From: Jaapia argillacea MUCL 33604
Taxonomy: Eukaryota; Basidiomycota; Agaricomycetes; Jaapiales; Jaapiaceae
Length of the DNA: 28,800 nucleotides
Direction of reading: 5' to 3'
NCBI GenBank assembly: GCA_000697665.1
Contig: KL197714.1
Coordinates: 1,061,738-1,090,537 of the forward strand
The notes under the pieces are model-generated. The model had not been told where the DNA came from. It was given only the letters and a program-made list of their open reading frames with translations, and searched no databases. Position numbers and translations under genes: made by a program. This document shows positions 3,634-27,693 of this stretch, in pieces (position 1 is the first letter of the stretch; each line of letters opens with the position of its first letter).

Positions 3634-4776
3634 TCATCGCCGCGCGGCGGACAAGGCTGCCACCATCTCATCGATGCTCATCCTTGGGGAGGGCGGAGGG
3701 GAATGATGCTTTGCATCCTCTTCGATAGAGATCGAACGTGAACGATGTTTCGGGTCTTTGGCAAAACAGAAAAAGGAGGAGGTACCAACTCTCCTAAAGC
3801 CCACCTGTCATAGGCGAGCGAGCAAAGTCAACAAAGAAGTCGAGTCGACTTGAAGGATCTACCAGGAGGGAAACTCACCTTCCGGAAAAATGCAGCGATG
3901 CCCTCCTTCTTCGCAGCCCACTCGGCCTTCTGCTGCAACGTAGGTTCCTGACCCACCGGCACAGTCGTGGGCTCAAGGTGGTTAAGAACTGTGGGCCAAG
4001 TGAACAAGAATCGTGCCTTCTTCAGTGGATCGAGCAGGTACAATCTGGGGAGGGCCCATGATCCAACACCCCTGTCACGCCAAGGTTTTTCGACGACGAG
4101 TTCCTCGATGTACACAAGAATGCCACCTGGGGATGTATCTTTGGGCGACCAACAGCCGCTCCCCGCCTTACCGACGGATTTGAGGAGCCTGCCGTCGTCG
4201 TCAAAAATAACGGCAAATTGGGACAGTTCCTGCCGACGAGGGCATAGATTTAGGAACGCAAGGAAATGATATCAAGGAAGGACGTACGGATGATTCTTCG
4301 TCGAGGGAAAGGAACAGCCCCTCATATGCCTTGGACGGAGTGATTATTTGGATTTTGATACGGCCGACTGTCTCGCCTTCTCCACTGACGATGTTGATAT
4401 GGAGATGCTAAAGAGACATACGGGATGAGTTGAGTGAAGCTTCAGCTGACGAACAGATATGTAGATGAACTTTGAGCCAAGCGGTATCGCTTTCCTCATC
4501 TTCATCCTCGTCGTCGCCATCTCCTTCCTGCGCCTCGTCATAGGTGACAATCAAGTGGAGGCCGTTCACAACGATCTTGGAACATTCTTTCTTGTGGCTC
4601 GGGGCAGCAGCTCTCTTGCAGGCGTCGGAGCAACTGCGTTAAACCATTCGACATCAACAGTACTTGTGGGTGGGAGAGGACAAAGAGACTCACTATGCGG
4701 CTGTTTTGCACAAAGAGCATTGGGAGAGGTTGAGAGCGGAGCTCTTTGCAGTACAGTTGGCATTGTCGCAGCTCAT
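3634..4776 (-). CDS. MYND zinc finger - GNAT-like protein A3 (intact)
   Basis: Exons (minus): 4776-4694, 4633-4471, 4407-4288, 4229-3879, 3804-3634; introns are 58-74 nt, giving 295 aa. The MYND finger (residues 3-45) has all ligands: C-D-N-A-N-C, CSLC, YCSDAC, H-K-K-E-C. An acidic linker follows. The GNAT-like domain has R-D-R-G-V-G at about 173-178, PRLYLL and WPTVLNHLEP, then VGFRRVGTSSFFCFA opening exon 5. The exon 1 length (83 nt) and all intron phases match A1. This copy is the best reference for the family. The GNAT fold and acetyl-CoA loop suggest an acyltransferase recruited by the finger to a partner protein; the substrate is not evident. Confidence 0.88.
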
Positions 4777-9352: not shown

Positions 9353-11516
9353 TCATATGTAATGCTGATGCCCACCCCTCGTAATCTCATCCACATCCCT
9401 CCAGCTCTTCAAAAGCGTCCTCCTAACACTGTACATGCCTGTTTCGGATCCATGGTATTCATGGCTCACATCCGACATCATTTCTTCAGCCGTTCGCCGG
9501 TCAGCTGGGGCGAACGGTTGGTTGTACGGGGAGAAGATATAGCTTTCCGGGGAGGGGGCGGTGTGCTGGACAGAAAGTCAGATTGAGAAAGAAAGAGGGG
9601 AAGTATCGTACCGCGGTAATCTCTTGGAGCTCTCGTTGGATAGCGAGGCAGAAGCCATCCAGATCTAAGTGTCGCAAGTGTCAGCGACGAGTGTATGTTC
9701 CACGATTCCGCAAGTAAGGGTACCAACCCAAATCATTCTCGTCGTAATTGAAGGGGTTCTCGCTGTAAATCAGTGTGAGTTGGACAGACACCATCGGGCG
9801 GAGGCTGAAGGACTGACATTTCCTGCCCAATCTCGAGGAAACCGAGGAGTAGGAATGCCGCAAAGGCGGTCGCGCTGTGTCGTGTCGTTATTATCTCAGA
9901 TGAATGGAATTGAAAGCAGATGACGAACGGAATGGTCAGCACTTTATAAGCGCTGTACACTTGGAACTGGGTAGGATCGGTGAATTCGTGACTTCTAAAA
10001 CCAATCCTACTAAACAATGATTACTCACAGGCAGCAACAATAGGTAGATCCTACGAGAACCGACGAGAAATATGAGATAAACCCGAGGGTAGAAAACAAA
10101 CACCCACCATAATGACATCCTTAAATGAGCCTGATAAGCAAAAGGCAGAGGTGTACTCTGAATCCTCTCTAAATTCGTCACGGCATCCTGCAGCGCCGCG
10201 ATACCATTCGAAATCCCTGTAGCGATCGCCGGTTGTAATAATCCCTTCTTCAGTAACCAAGCCAAGTAGCTCGACAAGTATAAACTGATCTCGAGCGGGA
10301 TGTTGGATTCGATAAGGGGTGGGGGAGCTTTTCTACCCAGTACAGTGCGTCCGTCGGAGGGGGCGGCCTTAGATCGCAAGGCGAATTTGAAGAAACGGAA
10401 GAAGGGAAAGTAATCGAAAAAGCCGGTGCTAGGTGGGTTACGAGCAGGTTTGAGAGGATACTCAGATGGAACTTTGGGAAGGACTTGTTCGGGGTCAAAA
10501 CGATCGTGCTTTCGACGGTGGGCGCGAGCCGCGCCATTAAAACGAGGCAACGTATCAGCCTGAGGATTAGGATCAGGTGATGTGCTTCCAGATGGAGCTG
10601 GTTGTTTTTCGGAGGATGTTGATGGGTAGAGTGTGTGGGAGCCGAGTTCAGAGGCTTTCCAGAGAGGGAGCATATCCTCATCTCGGGGTTCTTCGGGAGG
10701 ATGAATAGAATAGCGGGGGAGGTAACAGACCAGTGGATAGAGGTCCTCGTAGTATATTCCTGGTTCGCCACGGAGCGAGTGCTAGAAAATTACTCAATAA
10801 CTGAGAAGGAATAACGATCAAAACAACATATCCACAAACCTTCGTCGACACTGAAAATGCTTGGATCTGGACGGATTGTCAGGAGAAAGCACAGTGTATC
10901 TTGAGAAAAACAAAGTACAAGGTTGATCATGGTCTTCTTCTCAATGACCGCTGCCAAAGTCAAGCTTCTCTTCTTACTTCCGTCGTCATCTTCGGGAAGT
11001 TTCTGGTCCTTGTCGTCTCTCTCGGACGGGACATGATTCCAAATCTACGAGGTCGTCAGTCAGACTTCAGGGATAACATCATCCACATTCAATTCAGGAT
11101 TACCATATGTGCCAGATTACGAGAAGCGAACAAAATACCCGTCCACAGTTTCCTACCCTCCTGGTATCTGATCCCGATTTAGTTCGTGTGATCATCAAAT
11201 CCCAAGCGGGAATTGTAAGAAGCTTACCGCTCATAAGCGGAGGAGGTTCGGAAAGAGATGACCAAACCGAGGACGGTACCCAATACTGTCAGCAGCTGGT
11301 TTGAGACAGCCAATGAGACGTTCGTCCGCGACGATACGAGGTACACCACTACAGTTCATGTAAGAGACTTGGCTCAAAGCCGAACATTGGGGTGAAAGTG
11401 AGCTTACTGGTTGCCACCAAGGTGAAGAAAAGGACCTCTGGCCAGATGTCGTTGACAACAGTAGCCTGGAACTTTTTCCTGTTCCAATTCCTGAACAAAG
11501 GGTTCGTGGTAGGCAT
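9353..11516 (-). CDS. bestrophin / UPF0187-type anion channel
   Basis: Eleven exons (minus): 11516-11408, 11348-11228, 11167-11104, 11044-10919, 10866-10840, 10781-10108, 10050-10029, 9966-9818, 9762-9728, 9664-9612, 9565-9353. All phases agree and give 530 aa. Fungal UPF0187 landmarks appear in order: WPEVLFFTLVATMVYLVS (first membrane segment), GTVLGLVISFRTSSAYERY, GRKLWTGILFASRNLAHMIW, HSLRGEPGIYYEDLYPL, NLERIQSTPLPFAYQAHL, a membrane pair around LWIYLLLLPFQVYSAYKVL, and the closing ENPFNYDENDLDLDGFC and IQRELQEIT. A long disordered loop (about residues 190-310) is inserted before the NLERI motif. The family forms pentameric chloride or anion channels; membrane location in the cell is unknown. 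Exons of 22 and 27 nt are unusually small. The gene is divergent from the GST gene. Confidence 0.93.
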
Positions 11517-13409: not shown

Positions 13410-14438
13410 CTAGTTACCAGACCCCCGGTTGGGCGAATCTCTCTCCACTTGTCTCTTCAAGTCGGCCAACCAATCAATTGACGGATCCACGAGCTGGGGA
13501 GCGCGGGCGAGCCACCTGTCGATGCAAATGGGTTTAAATATCAATCCGAACCTCACGTCGATTGGCAATTTATGTTCCCCCTCATTCAACGCCAACACGC
13601 CAACCATGGCGAAGTCAGTCTCCCCATTGGTCCTCGCCAACATTGCCTTCCTTTCTTTCTCATGTTGCTCGAATCCGTCGTCAAACGACCCTGGGCCATG
13701 CACTTCCATGAGGATCTTGAACTGCCGCACCCCAACCACCATGCAGGACTTGATGGTGAATCGCGAGCCGAAATTCGAGTGTGGTCTCGGCTGCATGATG
13801 ATGTACATGGCAAGTTTGGAGATATTGGAGAAATCTTCATTGAGTTTCAGGGCGGGCACGACAGCGCAGGTGAGCGAGATGTCGAATCGCGCGACCCAAT
13901 GACGCAGCTGCCTTTGAAAGATTGAATCTGCCCTGGGTCCGGCACTTCTCAGTTTGGCAGCTATTGTTTTGCAGTTATCTTTATGCCAAGGCCAGTCCCG
14001 CCCTGTAGAACATGATAGGCGATTTGTAGGTCCCCACAACGAGAGCCTGATGTTACTTACGTTGACATTCCTTACTCTTCGTGAGATGAGGGCAAGATCG
14101 TCAAAGATCTTCGGGTCAGGGGTTAACGTGGACATACGCAGTAAACCGCAGTCCTTGAAGTCGAGCGATGAAATTAATCACGACACATGTACATTCAAGA
14201 TGACTGTGAGCGAACTCACTGACATTGAGCACACTTCTTCAAATTTTTGTGGTTCGCGCATTTGAATCCGTTGCAGAACCTGGTGGGCATACTCTTGTCA
14301 TAAACACGAACCACTGGGGTAGATCCCTCCGGTACAACCTCTGGATGGAGTTGGAATAGATGCATAACTATCATTCGGCGGTCAGTAGACGATTCGAGCG
14401 ATTAGCTACCCACGAGATATTAGTGGAATCTCGGGCAT
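13410..14438 (-). CDS. MYND zinc-finger protein B1
   Basis: Exons (minus): 14438-14414, 14367-14220, 14153-14138, 14076-14061, 14002-13410, giving 265 aa. A complete MYND finger is assembled only when two 16-nt exons are included: C-N-G-F-K-C, CAQC, VYCSKECQ, W-P-W-H-K-D-N-C. The remaining 190 or so residues form a domain shared with B2-B4. Its landmarks are RHWVARFDISL, LNEDFSNISKLAMYI, PRPHSNFGSRFTI, a charged helix EQHEKERKAML, NGETDFAMVGVL, and the C-terminal D-W-L-A-D-L-K-R-Q-V-E. The N-terminal exon (MPEIPLIS) is less certain; EVVPEG matches B2. MYND fingers bind Pro-rich peptides; the C-domain has no known function I can name. Tandem with B2. Confidence 0.85.
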
Positions 14439-14852: not shown

Positions 14853-15891
14853 TCAATCCGCCACACGAGTTGGTAAGTCCTTCTCCACCTGCATCTTCAA
14901 CGTACCCAACCAATCCAGAGTGGGATCCGTCAATTGCGGGGACTTCGCCATCCCCTTATACACAGGGACCGGCTTGAATCTGGACTCAGGTTTCAACTCC
15001 CCAGGAAGTTTATGCCTCCCCTTGTTCTCTGCGATGATACCAACAATAGCGTAATCCCGCTCCCCGTTGGAACTCGCCTTCAACAACGCTCTTTGCTCCT
15101 CGTGCTGAGCCATCGTCCTTTCGTATTCCTCCATATTAACCTGCATCTCCCTAGACCTTTGTTCAAATATTGGGAGAGGAACGACTTCGCAAATTGCGAT
15201 GGTAAACTGAGACCCAATATTGGAGTGTGGTCTGGGACGCAGGACGATGTACATGGCCATTCGGGAGACATTGGAAAAGTCCTGGGAGAGTTTCATGGCA
15301 ACTGTGACTGCAGTTATCAACGATATGTCGAATCGAGACGTCCAATGGCGGAGGTGCCTTTGTAAGATAGGCTCGGGGTCGGACGAAAGGCCGGAGCTGA
15401 TATGGGCGCATTGCCCTTTGTGCAGAGGCCAATCCTTGCCTGAACAATCAAACAGCCTTAGCGCGGATGCAGCCAAAATAGGCCTGATAATACTCACGTT
15501 GACACTCCTTGCTCTAAATGAAGGGTAAACATGTCTGGTTAGTATTCGTTCGGTGATAATGGAAAACAAGGTAAAAACATACACAATAAAGTGTGGTCCT
15601 ATACGGTTCAAAGGAGGTGAGGGCGACCCGCGAGTTCTTGCAGGTAGTAAGACTGACCTGCATCGAGTACACTTCATCAAGTCCCTCGAATTACAGCACT
15701 CTGCTTCAGCGCACTGTCTAATGGGCATGCTTTCATCGTACGTGAGGCCCGCCTCTGGCTGAACACCCTCGGGGACAATTTCTGGAAAAGACAGGGGTAA
15801 GTAGCGTTCGTTACAAACTTCAGCGCGAATGCGAAGAGGTGGATGTATACTTACTTTGTACTCGTACTTCACGAATGCCTGGGCGAGACAT
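14853..15891 (-). CDS. MYND zinc-finger protein B2
   Basis: Exons (minus): 15891-15855, 15781-15658, 15598-15583, 15513-15498, 15439-14853, giving 259 aa. I chose the ATG at 15891 because exon 1 (MSRPGIREVRVQ) then splices in phase to KIVPEGVQPEA, matching EVVPEG of B1. A longer upstream open frame ends out of phase and lacks an ATG. The finger is complete: C-A-E-A-E-C, CTRC, LYCSKECQ, W-P-L-H-K-G-Q-C. The shared C-domain shows RHWTSRFDISL, LSQDFSNVSRMAMYI, PRPHSNIGSQFTI, NGERDYAIVGII and D-W-L-G-T-L-K-M-Q-V-E-K-D. It is closest to B1 and to the relic B0 (ASSNGERDYA is identical in B0). Confidence 0.87.
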
Positions 15892-16270
15892 GCTTGGACA
15901 ACTCTGAAGATCTTATTGAGGACCTTGTCGACGTTGTGGTTTGGCGCCAAATGCCAAATTTTGGGCAAAAAGGCCTGGGCTGGGGGAGAACTTGAAGGTA
16001 ATCGGTCACATAGGTGTGATTGGTGACAAGGCGTGCCACTTTGTGTTGTCGAACGGAAACTTGAAGGTTCACCAGATTTCAGATCAGAGGTAGCCTCCAA
16101 ATCTCCAACTTAAGTCGTATCACCGCTTCCTCACGGCGGCAGGATAACAACCGCAGAGTACGCACCATGCACGAGTTGAACGGATAGTACTATGTGCCCA
16201 CCAAACTCAAGCGGTACTTATCATCAACTTTGCCATTCATCGAAACTAGGACTTCGCCACGGCTTCGTCG
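15892..16270. other. intergenic region upstream of B2
   Basis: GTCAC at 16005 and GTGAC at 16023, spaced by ATAGGTGTGATTG, lie about 114-136 nt upstream of the B2 ATG. Long open frames read through here on minus but start without ATG and do not splice in phase. Nothing else is seen. Confidence 0.4.
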
Positions 16271-16923: not shown

Positions 16924-17879
16924 ATGGTCCCCTCTATCAAATCGAGCGACTTGGTCATCCTGCCCGACCTCCATTGTCGTGCGTTCGGTTGCACGAATTC
17001 TGAAAAACTGAAAAAGTGTGCTCGTTGCAAGTGAGCTTTTGCTCTAGCGACGTTTCGGGTTGTTTTCTAACCGACCCTCTAGAAATACATATTATTGTGT
17101 ATGGTTGCCCCTCGTTCTCGATCATCCGATTCCATCTGACTTTGGGCTCATTCCATTCGCAAACAGAGCACCGAGTGTCAACGTGAGTCTCAGCTACCAC
17201 CGCTATCAAAGGCCGATTCACAGCCACCTCTGTACTTATCCTCCGTTCACCAGGAAAACACTGGCCATTCCATAAACCCCAATGTAACATAACCACAGAT
17301 TACCAACCTGGCCTACCTGATCAGGCCGAACCCATCCTTCGTCGACACTCCCGCTACTGGATAGCACGATTTTGCGACTCCATCTCTGAAGCGATCAGGG
17401 TGGGCCTCGACCTCTGCCACGACTTTACCAACATCACTCGCTACGGGATGTTCATAACCTTGTACCCTCGTCCTCATCCCAACATCGGTTCCCGATTCAC
17501 AATTCACGAGATCGACATTATGGCTCTCGACCAAATCGAGCTTCTCATTGAACATATCACCCCAGGTGCTGGTGCACGAATGATGGCACAGCACGAGGGA
17601 CAGCGAGTGATGGTGAGAGAACAATCGAAAGGAGACCAGGATTGTGCACCGGTTTTGCTCTTGACGACCAATTTGGGACCGCATCCCCTCCCCTCGCCAA
17701 CACCTATGGCGCCGGACCTTAGGTTTCGGTCAGTTTGTGTATCGAAGGGGAAGTGCGAAACCCTTGCGCGATATCCGAACTTGGTGCCGTATGGGTGGGA
17801 TGCGAAGTTGAATTGGAAGGAGAATCTGATCAGGCAGGTTGAGGAGGATAATCCTGTACCCAGTATAACTTTGGCGTAG
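16924..17879 (+). CDS. MYND zinc-finger protein B3
   Basis: Exons: 16924-17030, 17083-17098, 17167-17182, 17254-17879, giving 254 aa. The exon lengths 107, 16 and 16 are identical in B4. Finger: C-R-A-F-G-C, CARC, YYCSTECQ, W-P-F-H-K-P-Q-C. The shared C-domain shows YWIARFCDSIS, LCHDFTNITRYGMFI, YPRPHPNIGSRFTI, AQHEGQRVMV, QDCAPVLLL, then PYGWDAKLNWKENL and I-R-Q-V-E-E-D. It lacks the short upstream exon of B1/B2 and starts directly before the finger. With B4 it forms a subgroup (same first exon length; Y-W-I-A-R-F-C-D-S-I-S). Confidence 0.9.
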
Positions 17880-18411
17880 CTTAGGTCGACAACGGGTCTC
17901 GGGTCGGACGTAGCAAAAGATTTGAGACTTGCAAATGCGGGCTTCTATATATACCACTCTCCAGAAAGTTGGAGTTTCCTTCCGAACATTGAGGAACTGC
18001 GCACTATCGAATTTACTAGAATCGATGTGGGGCTGAGGGGGACTGGATCAGAGGTACCAAATATATCTGGGTCGGTGGGTTCTGTTCGTTGAAGGATCAT
18101 CTAACTGCCAGTAAAGCAGAGGAACGGATAAAATGAAACTAGAGGATTGCTGATCTGATTTTCCGAAACAGAGGGAGAAAATACAAGGCAGGAGGAAAGC
18201 ACAGGTTTCGGAGAACGAGCCCAGCCACAAGATGTGACATACCGTGACCTCGGCATCACGTCTTCTCCGTGAGGACAAATTTGCCTTGTTGGCTATTCTC
18301 GTCGTTATAGGTGCAGCAAGCAAACGGTCTTTCGTCACCGTAGCTCCTCCTCATCGACCACCACCACCATCGCCGACCCTCGTCGTGCCATCCAACCCGT
18401 CGCCATCCACT
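17880..18411. other. intergenic region with a possible N-terminal extension of the next gene
   Basis: From 18244 the frame of the next gene is open and encodes a hydrophobic run (F-A-L-L-A-I-L-V-V-I-G-A-A-S) that looks like a signal peptide core, but it has no ATG. An upstream exon may exist. Otherwise nothing is seen. Confidence 0.4.
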
Positions 18412-19150
18412 ATGTCTCCTTCCAAACCCGATTTCCACCGTCGTCAAATTCAACAACAAAACCCCCCAGCCACCACCAGCCAAGGCCCAGCATCCTCCCA
18501 ATCCGCCTCTGGCTCCCAATCCCGTTCAGCCTCTTCTTCATCTGCCATCCCCCAAACCGCACCAGCTGGAGGCCTAACGATAACCCAACCACCCCAAACC
18601 GCAACATCCTACTACAAACTCGCCCCCAACAACCTAATCACCTTCGCCTGGAACTTCACTTATCTCATATCCACCCCCGCTCATCTGACCGTTTCTGCGG
18701 TTTGTGATAATGGGAATACGTACCCTGTGGGACCGACGAACGGGATTATACCGGGGGCGGCGACGAGTGTAGTTTGGGATCCATATGCTTATAATCAGGC
18801 GAACTTGGCAACGCCGCTTGTGCAGGGGAGTTATACGTTGAATATTTGGGATGAGAGAGGTCCGGGTAGTGCGAGGGAACCGGGGAAGTTGGCACCCAAC
18901 AGTGCGTTGCAGTTTGCGTTGTACACACCACAGGGGTATACACCGATCGCTAGTGGTGAGCTCTTTTTATCGGTTTCTTGGATTGTGTATTGGGAAGTTG
19001 ATGGGTTATTGCTATGCGTTTGTAGGTTGGCAATGCGGAACGTGTTCGTCAGCCTCGTTGGCCGCTCATCCAGCATTCACGGCCATCATCGCCTCCTTCA
19101 TCGTCATGTTCCTCTCGGGATACAGTATCCTCCGACACTCCCTGCATTAG
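18412..19150 (+). CDS. DUF7137-like, C-terminally anchored surface/secretory protein
   Basis: Exons 18412-18955 and 19026-19150 (70-nt intron), giving 222 aa from the ATG at 18412. A low-complexity Ser/Gln/Pro stretch (residues 10-50) is followed by a beta-rich domain with the family signature: YYKLAPNNLITFAWNFTYL, the NGNTYPVGPTNGIIPG block, LVQGSYTLNIWDERGP and FALYTPQGYTP. A C-G-T-C pair and one C-terminal membrane segment (A-F-T-A-I-I-A-S-F-I-V-M-F-L) close it. The domain probably faces the lumen or cell exterior, so a signal peptide is expected; the open frame upstream of 18412 encodes one without an ATG, so the N-terminus may be incomplete. An N-F-T glycosylation site is visible. Function unknown. 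Confidence 0.8.
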
Positions 19151-20265
19151 GCATTAGAACACCCCATGCCCCCTCTACGACCCTTGGAAACGGACGCAAT
19201 GCGCGTGTAGATGAAAAGGCAGCCGATTCGGCATTACCCCTAGTCTAGGTGGAATAAAGAACTCTGGTCAAGGACACTGGCACTCATTTTGGCTCTGACT
19301 TTTCTTTTGATTCATAACGACCCTGTTCACGATATTTGCATCAACTCATATACGTACCTCCTCATCCCTGTCGTTTACGCTGGTTCTGTTCTGTTTCGTT
19401 GCATCAATGGACCATAATCTTGACTCTTTTTTAGGTACTTTATATATCATGGATCGTGGTGATAATGAAATGGTAGATTTTGGAACTGGTGTAGCGACGT
19501 TCATACCCTGAGCCCACTGCCTGTGCGATGGTTGAGTGGACGAAGGCCATTGTTCTGTTCAGGGTTAGTAACGCAAGGTACCGTGCTGTAAGCGATGTAC
19601 GCATCTGCCCAGACTGCACCTGTGAGGTTGCTTTAGAGCTCACCATATATGGTTAATCATGGCAACGAGGTTACTCGGTTGGCGACACTTGCCCGAAGGC
19701 AAACGGCGCGGTCCGGAGATAAGCAAGTAAGGAGGGGAAAGTGACACAAGAGGGAAGTTTCGGATTTGCCCCATAGCGGAGTAAGGAGCGCCCGGTTACC
19801 ATTGGGGAGTATACATGTGGGGAAATTCCCCTGTGAGTGATGGAACCGTTGGGCTGGAGGAGGGATATGGTCGTCAAAGAATGGCGTCGCGACATAGAAC
19901 TTGAATAATGCGGCAGCTCGATAGCAGGAGAACTAAGCAGAGATTGTGATCCGTCCAGCGTCGTGCCGATCTTGGGTTTTGTGTTGATAAGACATGACGG
20001 TATTCGCGTTTTTTAGCTTGAAGGAGCTTATGGAAGCCAAGTGGGCGGATGGTGTGAGGTTTCAATTGGGACGATATAGAGGTTATAAAGGTTTTGGATT
20101 GCTTAAAACATTCGATTGTCGAGGTGCTAATGTTGTCTTTCCCAAAGTTCTCCTACTAATAACGAAATAGTCAGCTCCAATCTGTAGACGTTCAGGAGAT
20201 ACGTACAGCAAATCATTCCATGACCATCCACAATCAATACGAGAGATTTCGCGAGCCAATCTCTA
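19151..20265. other. 1.1-kb intergenic region
   Basis: This is the longest gap in the window, downstream of two convergent genes. Small palindromes such as GGGGAAATTCCCC near 19819-19831 occur. I find no convincing coding exon, tRNA or repeat; several short minus frames have no family resemblance. Confidence 0.4.
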
Positions 20266-21194
20266 CTATACAGAAGGCGGAGGAGCTCGAGGTATCGGCA
20301 AGTCCTCATCAACCACCTTCTGCAAATTCTCCCTCCAATCCAACTTCGGATCCCATCCATACGGCAGCGCAGACGCCTCACACTCACTTTTCACCACAGC
20401 TATCGACCTAAACTTCAAACGAGGGTATATTGAATTATCCGGCGAAGGTATCTTATGTTCTCCTTTATTAACAGCGAAAATCAACACAGGTGCCGAATCC
20501 TGTTCGCCATTAGTTTGTTCCTGTAGAGCTTGACGTTCAATATGATGTTGCTTCATCATTTGTTCGACGGTACCGGGAGAGACGCTTCCGAGCAAAACGG
20601 CGAATGAGGAGAGAGTGAGGAGGGTGATTGAGTGGATGTGGAATCGGGCACCGATGATGGGGTGTGGGCGGGGATGGAGAGTGATGAGTAATCCGTATTT
20701 GGAGATGTTGGAGAAGTCGTGGGTGAGGTTAAAGGCGAACATCATGGCGTCGGAGATGGAGTCGCAGAATCGCGCTATCCAGTAACGGCAGTGACGTCGG
20801 AGGAGAGGTTCGGGTTCATCTCCTGTGCCTGAGGGAGTGGTGATTGATATGTCGCATTGGGGTTTATGAGTTGACCAGTGTTTTCCTTCGCGTTGATGGA
20901 TTTTGACGGTGTGAGGATGGGTTGGAGGGTGGAGGGAGACTCACTTTGACATTCTGTGCTCTGGTTTAGAGTGGTGGTTATGTGGTGTGGAGGGTTAGTG
21001 AGGGTTAGACGTACACAATAATAGGCGTTCCTGTGGAGAAGGATGGTCAGACGTGGTCCGGATGGAGTGATGAAGGAGAGAGCTGACTTGCAACGAGCAC
21101 ACTTTCGCAGCTTTTTGGATCTCCCGCAGTACAGCGCTCGACATTGGATGTCGGGGAGAATGGGTTGTTCCGTCGGCGGATTGGTGGTGCTCAT
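20266..21194 (-). CDS. MYND zinc-finger protein B4
   Basis: Exons (minus): 21194-21088, 21030-21015, 20960-20945, 20885-20266, giving 252 aa. Finger: C-R-A-L-Y-C, CARC, YYCSTECQ, W-S-T-H-K-P-Q-C. The C-domain shows YWIARFCDSIS, LTHDFSNISKYGLLI, HPRPHPIIGARFHI, QMMKQHHIERQAL, NGEQDSAPVLIF and PYGWDPKLDWRENL, and the protein ends in a Pro-rich tail. B3 is its nearest paralog, with shared exon lengths and no upstream mini-exon. B3 and B4 end toward each other around the DUF7137-like gene, so they arose by duplication with inversion. The start is the first ATG in frame before the finger. Confidence 0.9.
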
Positions 21195-25443: not shown

Positions 25444-27693
25444 ATGCCCGCGAAACTCCCATCCATCCCGCCACTAGTCAACCAAATCCTCTCTGCAGCG
25501 CAAGCAGCCCCGGTACCAGGTCTCTCGCCTGCGCTTGAAGTTCTGAAATCCTGTATTGATGCGTACAACCAAGTCAAGACTAATCAAGGAGCTTGTGCCG
25601 ATTTGTTGGCTAGGGCTGCGGATTTGGTGAATAAGGTTAATGGTTTGGTGAAGGATTCAGAGACGGGAGATCCGATGGAGAGAGCGTTGAGCCAGCTTGT
25701 GTCGTAAGCTCTCGTGTTTCCCTTGCATCGACTTTGTTCCCCGTTGCTGAATATCGTTTTACACGTTGCATAGATGCCTTGTGGAGGTCAAGACAACGTT
25801 GACCTTCGCTGGAAAACACAACTTTATATACTGGCTATTTCATCAAGACGACATTGCATCTTCTATCGCGGTAGCCAACTCGAGCATTAATGATGCTTTT
25901 CTTCTCTTTAACGTCCGTAACGCCCCTCTCGCTTTATCCTCTGACTGACCAAACCATCTACCCTAGATCAAGAGTGACATCTTGATATATAACTAAGCCA
26001 AGAACTACCACCAAGAAGTCCTCGCAGGTCTATCTGAACTGAAACCCGTGCCCTCTGCGAGTAACCTGCAAGATAAGGAACTCAGGGCGGCGTTGCGCAG
26101 GGTACGCACACCCTCTCCGCATCACTATTACATCTTATCCGCATTTCCATTTTTTTAACCATGCAACTAGCTTCTGATTGAAAACAGCTCACCATCACCA
26201 ACATCGTTGCAAGCTGCGCTGAGTGGCCTGCTTTCCACCACACCATCTAACTCGTCAGAAGCAGACCTCCCTCCCTACGTTATAACAGCATACGAAGTTG
26301 CAAGCGATACTCAAGTGTATGAAGGTCCATGGGGTGCAATTTGGAAGGGTAAATGGTGTGGGTGTGTGGTGGCTATCAAAAAGTTGAGTAGCGACGTTGG
26401 ACGGGAAGTGAGTGCGAGGCTGCTTCGCATCATCTGCTGATGGTCGAACTACCTTGAATTGATGCGGTGTACTATCGACGGTAGGATCTTGAAAGACAGG
26501 TGGCAATATGGTCGGGACTTCGGCACGAGAACGTTCTCCAGGCATTTATCTCTCGAGTTCCTCTATCTCATCCTAGAGCTGACCATTCATTCGACAGTTC
26601 TATGGCGTATCCACGGCAAGCACAGTACCTTTCCTCGTCTCCCCGTTCATGGAGAATGGCACCGTAATGGAACATCTCGAACGCAATCCCAGCTCAGAAG
26701 TCAATCGGTTTAAAATGGTATGTGCTTTGCTACTGGGCCTCGTTTATTGGCTATGGTGTTGCTTAACTTACTAGTCGCTTGTCTCCAGATCACTGGTATC
26801 GCGTACGGTATGCAGTATCTCCATTCTCGTAACTTCATTCACGGGAACCTCCAAGGTGTAAGTAACAGCCCTCTTCTCTTCTTCCCATCTTCCCACCTTC
26901 ATGCCATACCTAACACGCCCCCTTAGTCAAACGTTCTCCTTACCTCAACCTCTCCGCCACGACCTGTTCTGTCAGGTTTCGGCCTAACGAAACTCAAACA
27001 TGATACACTCTCCCGCTCAACCGACCAGGCTTTCATCTCACGTGTCCTTCATTCACCTGCAGCAGTCGGTGAGAGACGTTGGATGGCACCTGAACGACTT
27101 GGTTTGGGGAAGGTGAGTCGAGCAGTGGATGTTTGGAGCTTTGGATGTACTGTTCACGAGGTCAGTTGTTTGTTTGCTGACAAACTTGTGCAGTCTGATG
27201 GCGAATTCGTTGTGTTTGTTTGGGGTTAGATATTGACGGGTAGACCACCTTTCGACGATCTTGACCCAGCTACCATTAGAAAACACATTCTGGGAGCTCG
27301 AAACACGCCGATCTCGACCCACCTTCCTGTCCCTCCCCATCTCCTGTCTTTATCAAAGGGCCAAGTGCCCTCCCCACCGTCATCGCAAATCGACGACGAT
27401 GCTGAACCTCTTACGACATGGCCCACCGATGTCGGTTTTCCCGCATTTGAGGGAGCACCACAACCTCCGTTAATCTTCCACCCTTATTACTCGACCGGCA
27501 TCAGGCGGCTAGTGGAGGGATGTTGGAGTCACGAGCCTGCCTCCAGGCCAAATTTCGATGCGATAACGTGAGTGTTGTCCTGTCCCTGCGATTTTCTGTG
27601 CTCTGAATGGAACCTAAGGACAATGCTAGCATATATCGAAGCCTCTTAAACGTCTTTACGCCAATTGTCATAATTAGGCTACGAATTATATAG
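25444..27693 (+). CDS. MLKL-like protein: N-terminal helical bundle + C-terminal pseudokinase
   Basis: Ten exons: 25444-25703, 25774-25912, 25967-26101, 26171-26407, 26485-26541, 26598-26717, 26789-26857, 26927-27160, 27230-27567, 27630-27693, giving about 550 aa. Residues about 20-165 form an all-helical region (LEVLKSCIDAYNQVKTNQGA, ADLLARAADLVNKVNGLV, SSINDAFLLFNIKSDI) like the MLKL-NTD class common in mushroom fungi. A linker leads to a TKL-like kinase fold (about 218-535). Its glycine loop is broken (Y-E-G-P-W-G-A-I-W), VAIK is kept (Lys248), the catalytic loop is H-G-N-L-Q-G-S-N (Asn336 for Asp) and DFG is G-F-G (356-358). WMAPE and DVWSFGC are kept. It should bind but not hydrolyse nucleotide. 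TAA at 25994-25996 interrupts exon 3 unless an alternative intron (25917-25997) is used, giving 541 aa. The intron at 26542 has a GC donor. Confidence 0.82.

Follow-up and report, generated by a model that had tools for sequence, protein, structure and literature searches.

A Jaapia argillacea gene joining an MLKL_N-like domain to a pseudokinase, with an in-frame stop between the two

Does a basidiomycete encode a cell-death executor built like MLKL, in which a catalytically dead kinase would hold a membrane-damaging helical bundle in check? The question is raised by a gene at positions 25444-27693 of a 28,800-base stretch of the Jaapia argillacea MUCL 33604 genome (contig KL197714.1, here C6, positions 1061738-1090537; assembly of 43.7 Mb in 95 contigs). 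We call this whole stretch the window. We tentatively favor a reading in which the gene is a divergent member of a fungal, probably Agaricomycete, family joining an MLKL_N-type four-helix bundle to a tyrosine kinase-like (TKL) kinase, became an MLKL-like executor lidded by a pseudokinase, and now carries a stop. The gene is MLKL-like in architecture, and a killing activity is presumed.

Gene structure and loss of the catalytic motifs

The gene lies on the forward strand and runs from an ATG at 25444 to a stop codon whose last base is 27693 (Table 1). Its 10-exon model was drawn by eye and checked by script, and exon junctions were chosen so as to keep the frame. The nine introns measure 54 to 77 bases; eight have GT donors and one is a GC-AG intron. 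A first-pass annotation had placed the gene at these coordinates and listed the VAIK Lys and the motifs HGNLQGSN, GFG, MAPE and DVWSFG; we found them all, as VAIKK, HGNLQGSN, SGFG, MAPE and DVWSFG.

The C-terminal part has a kinase fold of TKL type (Pfam PK_Tyr_Ser-Thr, E=3e-38) that chance does not explain. Both catalytic acids are gone, as the first-pass annotation had reported: the catalytic loop reads HGNLQGSN, and SGFG takes the place of DFG. By eye, comparison with the closest paralog, on contig C61, revealed that the helix-C Glu (RQVAIW, against HEIAIW in C61) and the first P-loop Gly are also missing. The VAIK Lys, the loop Asn, MAPE and DVWSFG are kept, and the residues from GFG to MAPE include a stretch rich in Ser and Thr. 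The Asp residues of HRD and DFG that mark an active kinase are absent (HGN, GFG); as in the MLKL family, the C-terminal kinase lacks the catalytic Asp residues and has its VAIK Lys in place. Judged by its motifs, the kinase is a pseudokinase. Animal MLKL likewise retains the VAIK Lys and carries a GF-type change of DFG.

Table 1. Features of the window gene and third-family N-domains
Feature	Position	Strand	Basis
Whole gene: MLKL_N-like domain, brace-like linker, pseudokinase; 10 exons, 9 introns	25444-27693	+	gene model
Exon 1: aligns with extra N-terminal helix and first two helices	25444-25703	+	gene model, alignment; helices by alignment only
Intron 1: GTAAGC..TAG, phase 2	25704-25773	+	gene model
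Exon 2: aligns with third and fourth helix (CLVEV...FIYWLFHQDDI...DAFLLFN)	25774-25912	+	gene model, alignment
Intron 2: GTCCGT..TAG, phase 0; CTGAC branch-like sites at 25941 and 25945	25913-25966	+	gene model
One alternative intron 2: GTAACG..AAG, removes stop and conserved segment; low support	25917-25997	+	junction scan
Exon 3: post-bundle segment with in-frame stop	25967-26101	+	gene model
Exon 4: second linker segment and kinase N-lobe	26171-26407	+	gene model
P-loop YEGPWGAI	26318-26341	+	exon 4
VAIKK	26369-26383	+	exon 4
Exon 5: helix C, Gln where C61 has Glu	26485-26541	+	gene model; by-eye comparison
GC-AG intron after exon 5	26542-26597	+	gene model
Catalytic loop HGNLQG / SN, interrupted by intron 26858-26926; Asp to Asn, Lys to Gln	26834-26932	+	gene model, motif reading
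LSGFGLTK: DFG Asp to Gly	26969-26992	+	motif reading
MAPER, kept	27083-27097	+	motif reading
DVWSFG, kept	27128-27145	+	motif reading
Third-family N-domains, C8	1341498-1342194, 1477420-1478116, 1481068-1481764		genome search
Third-family N-domains, C6	599468-600146, 609388-610072, 645272-645969, 671572-672269, 720081-720769		genome search

We compared the loop with those of other kinases in the genome. Two genome-wide searches reported 163 and 120 kinase matches, and the loci examined came from 8 and 30 of these, several overlapping. The first loop scan took 30 loci with a pattern that did not require HG, nine of which were looked at again, and returned HRD-type (e.g., L001-L008), HCD (L021) and HG-type loops. 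The second required HG and a DFG-like motif; with four rows added by hand (the window gene, C61, C47 and C21) it gave 17 kinases, a sample biased towards relatives of the window kinase. Left out of the 17 were L023, L029, L034 and L039 (only the DFG motif read, as DFG), L032 (neither motif read) and the HRD- and HCD-type kinases. Fourteen of the 17 carry HGD with DFG, and three are dead by their motifs: the window kinase (HGN, GFG), C47 (HGG, DLG) and C21 (HGG, GFT). The first-pass annotation had taken the HG-type loop as a likeness to MLKL. With at least 14 other kinases of the genome combining HGD with an intact DFG, the loop is not MLKL-specific, and we rejected it as a sign of MLKL kinship.

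The best kinase matches outside the window gene are those on C61 and C47 (36% identity, E about 4e-17 and 5e-17), and these two loci form a pair. L043 (C47:44500-50500) and L044 (C61:135600-138735) are 93.8% identical over 3092 bases and both hold a kinase, which is intact on C61 (HGDLK, SDFG) and dead on C47 (HGGLN, SDLG). An MLKL_N-type domain is complete on C47 only; on C61 the contig ends within it, and just its last 12 residues matched. Given this truncation, the pair may represent haplotypes or duplicates. The contrast between them shows that catalytic-motif losses can be recent and, if the kinase tree is right, C47 lost its motifs separately from the window kinase. The remaining 13 HG-type kinases are intact, with no immune module detected within the flank of about 1.5 kb examined.

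The kinase on C21 sits elsewhere in the tree on a long branch. At this locus (L040, C21:180024-183647, reverse strand), a NACHT-like module (NPHP3_N, E=2.2e-10) is followed on the same strand by the pseudokinase (HGGLQG, VGFTA). If both parts belong to one gene, L040 is possibly an NLR-pseudokinase fusion.

The N-domain and its paralog on C47

The N-domain of C47 matches MLKL_N over 124 residues (E=2.5e-4; 21.0 bits against a curated cut-off of 27), and the comparison of the window N-domain with that of C47 beats all 1000 shuffles in each of two tests. Support for an MLKL_N-type domain is thus reached in two steps, from the window to C47 and from C47 to MLKL_N, and the MLKL identity of the window N-domain is credible only because of the C47 paralog. 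The first-pass annotation's helical N-domain of MLKL type gains support by this route; by direct comparison, where MLKL_N gave E=0.05-0.08, it is not significant. Excerpts of PMC9815663 describe basidiomycotal MLKL_NTD-like (BaMLKL) domains in fungal NLRs and small proteins, with an extra N-terminal helix (here and below, papers are cited for the excerpts consulted). Taking homology to a same-genome N-domain that matches MLKL_N as the mark of this group, the window domain shows it via C47. On sequence grounds, it most likely belongs to the BaMLKL group.

The intron pattern points the same way at one site. By eye, C47 and C8 each carry a counterpart of intron 2 (phase 0, after LLFN) that agrees with it in position and phase, following GLFG in C47 and KLFD in C8. 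Intron 1 (phase 2) coincides with a phase-2 intron of C8 when counted 17 residues back from the common Phe and is four residues off in a gapped local alignment; C47 has no intron at that site and one further upstream. Our argument from introns rests on intron 2, the agreement of intron 1 with C8 having weakened on re-checking, as did, slightly, the C47 match. Scored crudely, the segments assigned to the extra helix, to helices 1-3 and to the first linker helix are more amphipathic than most of their shuffles. The linker from bundle to kinase spans roughly 65-90 residues, depending on the choice of bundle end, and contains two helix-like segments by crude propensity.

A third family of N-domains, related to the C47 domain, was seen at eight places on C8 and C6 (Table 1). 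The part behind the N-domain of the C6:720k copy resembles a very eroded kinase by eye; Pfam found nothing there.

Direct searches contributed little: the hits of the window gene itself in Pfam, NCBIfam and PDB are weak or missing, and we do not accept such searches as direct proof that it is homologous to MLKL. The profile check proposed in the first-pass annotation gave no HeLo or HELL match for the N-domain in Pfam at E<=10, where HMMER filters drop most matches above about 0.1, and MLKL_N only at the direct values given above. The C47 N-domain alone had no PDB match at E<=10. Searching the genome exon by exon with the MLKL_N profile returned nothing at E<=10; this silence says little because it missed even the C47 domain. 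A prokaryote genome scan for relatives gave 52 pattern matches, none of them confirmed, which was the expected outcome.

The in-frame stop and competing explanations

Codon 143 of the splice form that homology supports is an in-frame TAA (25994-25996). With the homologous intron 2 (25913-25966), whose CTGAC branch-like sites lie about 21-25 bases upstream of the acceptor, exon 3 reads IKSDILIYN, TAA and then AKNYHQEV. The predicted product has 142 residues and ends just past the bundle, ahead of the linker and pseudokinase. The first-pass annotation missed this stop: its domain order holds, but in this splice form its uninterrupted fusion protein does not. When GC donors are counted, the scanned stretch offers 26 combinations of junctions that give stop-free full-length products; these junctions delete the post-bundle segment that aligns with C47 and C8. 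The protein predicted from alternative splicing has 541 residues. The TAA may reflect a misassembly, a polymorphism or a true null, or splicing may bypass it, and one sequence does not tell these apart; the gene is possibly a null allele in the sequenced strain.

Several results weigh against a pseudokinase-lidded executor. The first is the TAA itself: in the splice form with homology support, the frame does not run on from the bundle into the pseudokinase and is open only with other junctions, and because of this, membership in the MLKL family proper is not established. Direct MLKL_N matches of three cuts of the canonical N-terminus reached E=0.083, 0.057 and 0.054 (12.8-13.4 bits against a cut-off of 27), the family was not listed by Pfam for the 541-residue protein, and no Pfam family matched the C8 N-domain. 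Against PDB, the window N-domain alone gave four chance-level matches (best 0.68), none of them MLKL, and MLKL was absent from the best 60 of 2373 PDB sequences matching the whole protein. In profile searches, mouse MLKL scored E=0.71 (A2) and 1.2 (A1) and was absent from the 11 matches of A3; hhalign against a mouse MLKL fragment gave a probability of 3% (E 0.015). Amphipathicity was not clearly beyond shuffles in the helix 4 segment, the piece after helix 4 and the second linker helix. In the kinase tree, C61 and C47 are the nearest neighbors of the window kinase when path length is counted, at weak support (64/50); in sequence identity, a different kinase, L025b, comes first (43% over 87 columns). 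Finally, a close relative of the architecture, C61 as sister of C47, has an intact HGD/DFG kinase.

The C61 kinase bears on whether the gene is simply decaying. The first-pass annotation had named orthologs with intact motifs as the sign of decay; C61 comes close, yet it is a paralog. We simulated neutral substitution on the coding sequence, stopping once 2, 3 or 4 members of a chosen set of four catalytic residues had been replaced, with 400 runs each. Runs ending at two replaced residues carried a median of 8 stops, and 5.75% of them had no more than one; at three, the median rose to 14 and the share with no more than one stop fell to 0.25%; at four, the median reached 20 and every run had two or more. 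The gene has a single such stop in its 1653 coding bases, spread over 10 exons. The simulation is simple, modeling no indels, using the present sequence as ancestor and following four residues picked after their loss was seen; within these bounds, it suggests that the motifs disappeared from a gene whose frame was still being maintained and that the stop was a late event.

These numbers make it rather unlikely, though a serious contender, that the gene is a functionless pseudogene, a duplicate of an active C61-like MLKL_N-kinase in which loss of the catalytic residues was followed by loss of the frame. The TAA at codon 143 and weak splice sites (GTCCGT, the GC-AG intron) fit such a history, as does the C47/C61 contrast, in which loci 94% identical carry HGG/DLG and HGD/DFG, respectively. 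A single stop is nevertheless far from the median of 14 or 20 expected for three or four lost residues, although the model has no indels and the frame-keeping choice of junctions could hide frameshifts, and the stop may be recent or strain-specific.

Could the protein instead be a decoy or scaffold that takes part in a network of kinases or NLRs without catalysis, for instance as effector bait or allosteric partner, and does not permeabilize membranes? The C21 pseudokinase lies directly behind a NACHT-like module, and 51 NACHT matches (E<=0.01) in the genome amount to a sizeable complement of NLRs, to which pseudokinases could be partners. Plant MLKL-type proteins comprise the AtMLKL pseudokinases and Pm13, a predicted active kinase (PMC10951266, excerpts). 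By description, they share with the window gene the domain order and, within one family, active-looking and dead kinases, and differ in lineage; because plants have both states in the same architecture, kinase state alone does not decide function. We consider a decoy or scaffold improbable. The N-domain is of MLKL_N/HeLo type, whose studied members act on membranes according to excerpts of a 2025 review (PMC12881547), and no NACHT match is listed in the window, the nearest listed on the contig being about 295 kb away.

A bolder proposal, which we regard as speculative, ties the stop to regulation. Its position would leave it to the splicing of intron 2 whether the 142-residue bundle is made on its own or a full-length protein with its lid, and kinases of one expanded group would repeatedly have become pseudokinases when tied to immune modules (the window gene and C47 on MLKL_N-type bundles, C21 behind a NACHT-like module). 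That the N-terminus is an ordinary helical adaptor unrelated to MLKL is highly improbable: profiles compared directly give weak hits, and a family matched by chance scores on a par with MLKL_N, but the homology to C47 and the shared intron speak against it.

We return to the pseudokinase-lidded executor. In this reading, having lost its catalytic acids and helix-C Glu with the frame kept, the kinase would probably act as a lid. If the parallel with MLKL holds, the bundle would be held inactive by the pseudokinase together with a short linker, which could serve as brace. The upstream signal may be phosphorylation in the Ser/Thr-rich region that separates GFG from MAPE, a bound ligand or an NLR partner, and the released bundle would oligomerize and damage membranes. 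In the sequenced strain, the main transcript should yield only the 142-residue bundle fragment or no stable product.

Neighboring frames and known systems

Other frames of the window form local families. Three tandem paralogous frames on the reverse strand (289-702, 2310-2804 and 3828-4271) share, by eye, a GVG(T/S)WAL(P/S)RL-type motif; they are acetyltransferase-like at a guess, and Pfam found no family for 2310-2804. Four further paralogous frames (13410-14177, 14853-16109 and 20266-20940, reverse strand; 17187-17879, forward strand) share, again by eye, a PRPHxxxGxRFxI-type block and make up a local gene family; the one scanned with Pfam, 14853-16109, had no match. The frame at 9936-10781 (reverse strand) matches Bestrophin_2 (E=4.9e-10), and that at 18238-19248 (forward strand) matches DUF7137 (E=9.1e-49).

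We compared the gene with published systems. Animal MLKL (PF22215 plus pseudokinase) has the same domain order, a linker between bundle and kinase and a dead kinase; it differs in that the direct sequence match is not significant and in that the HG loop also occurs in active-looking kinases of this genome. BaMLKL domains, likened by description, are most likely of the same kind as the window domain, which is homologous to the C47 domain and has a pre-bundle segment where the extra helix is reported; their partner is NACHT, unlike the kinase partner and stop found here (PMC9815663, excerpts). FslK are TK-like kinases retained and expanded in Agaricomycetes and described as likely active (PMC3937382, excerpts). 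The window kinase is probably of this group, an assignment made from its TKL fold and the group expansion in the genome rather than from comparison with an FslK sequence, yet it is catalytically dead by its motifs.

The first-pass annotation had remarked that a fused pseudokinase would make a self-contained fungal executor. Fungal HELL-kinase and HELL-pseudokinase proteins are already noted in the 2025 review (PMC12881547, excerpts); by description, without residues, they share with the window gene a bundle and a kinase or pseudokinase in one protein. Excerpts of PMC11476962 label a Basidiobolus protein fungal MLKL, which we liken to ours by that label alone, without domain layout or alignment. 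With fusions of HELL/MLKL type to kinases or pseudokinases in print, the bundle-(pseudo)kinase architecture is already known in fungi. Among early-diverging fungi surveyed, MLKL-family homologs are reported in Glomeromycotina only (PMC8778642, excerpts), and excerpts of PMC10197012 and PMC12258605 contain no statement on MLKL-kinase fusions. A member like that of the window, with lost acids and a stop, was not found described in the openly licensed papers searched.

The in-frame stop is a caution against naming a working executor from motifs alone. Should splicing act as proposed above, the choice at intron 2 could arm or disarm the executor. If the gene works as we infer, it would offer a testable fungal counterpart of MLKL and AtMLKL, with bundle, linker and dead kinase in one protein, and the C47/C61 pair would allow asking when and why the kinase in a death protein may die.
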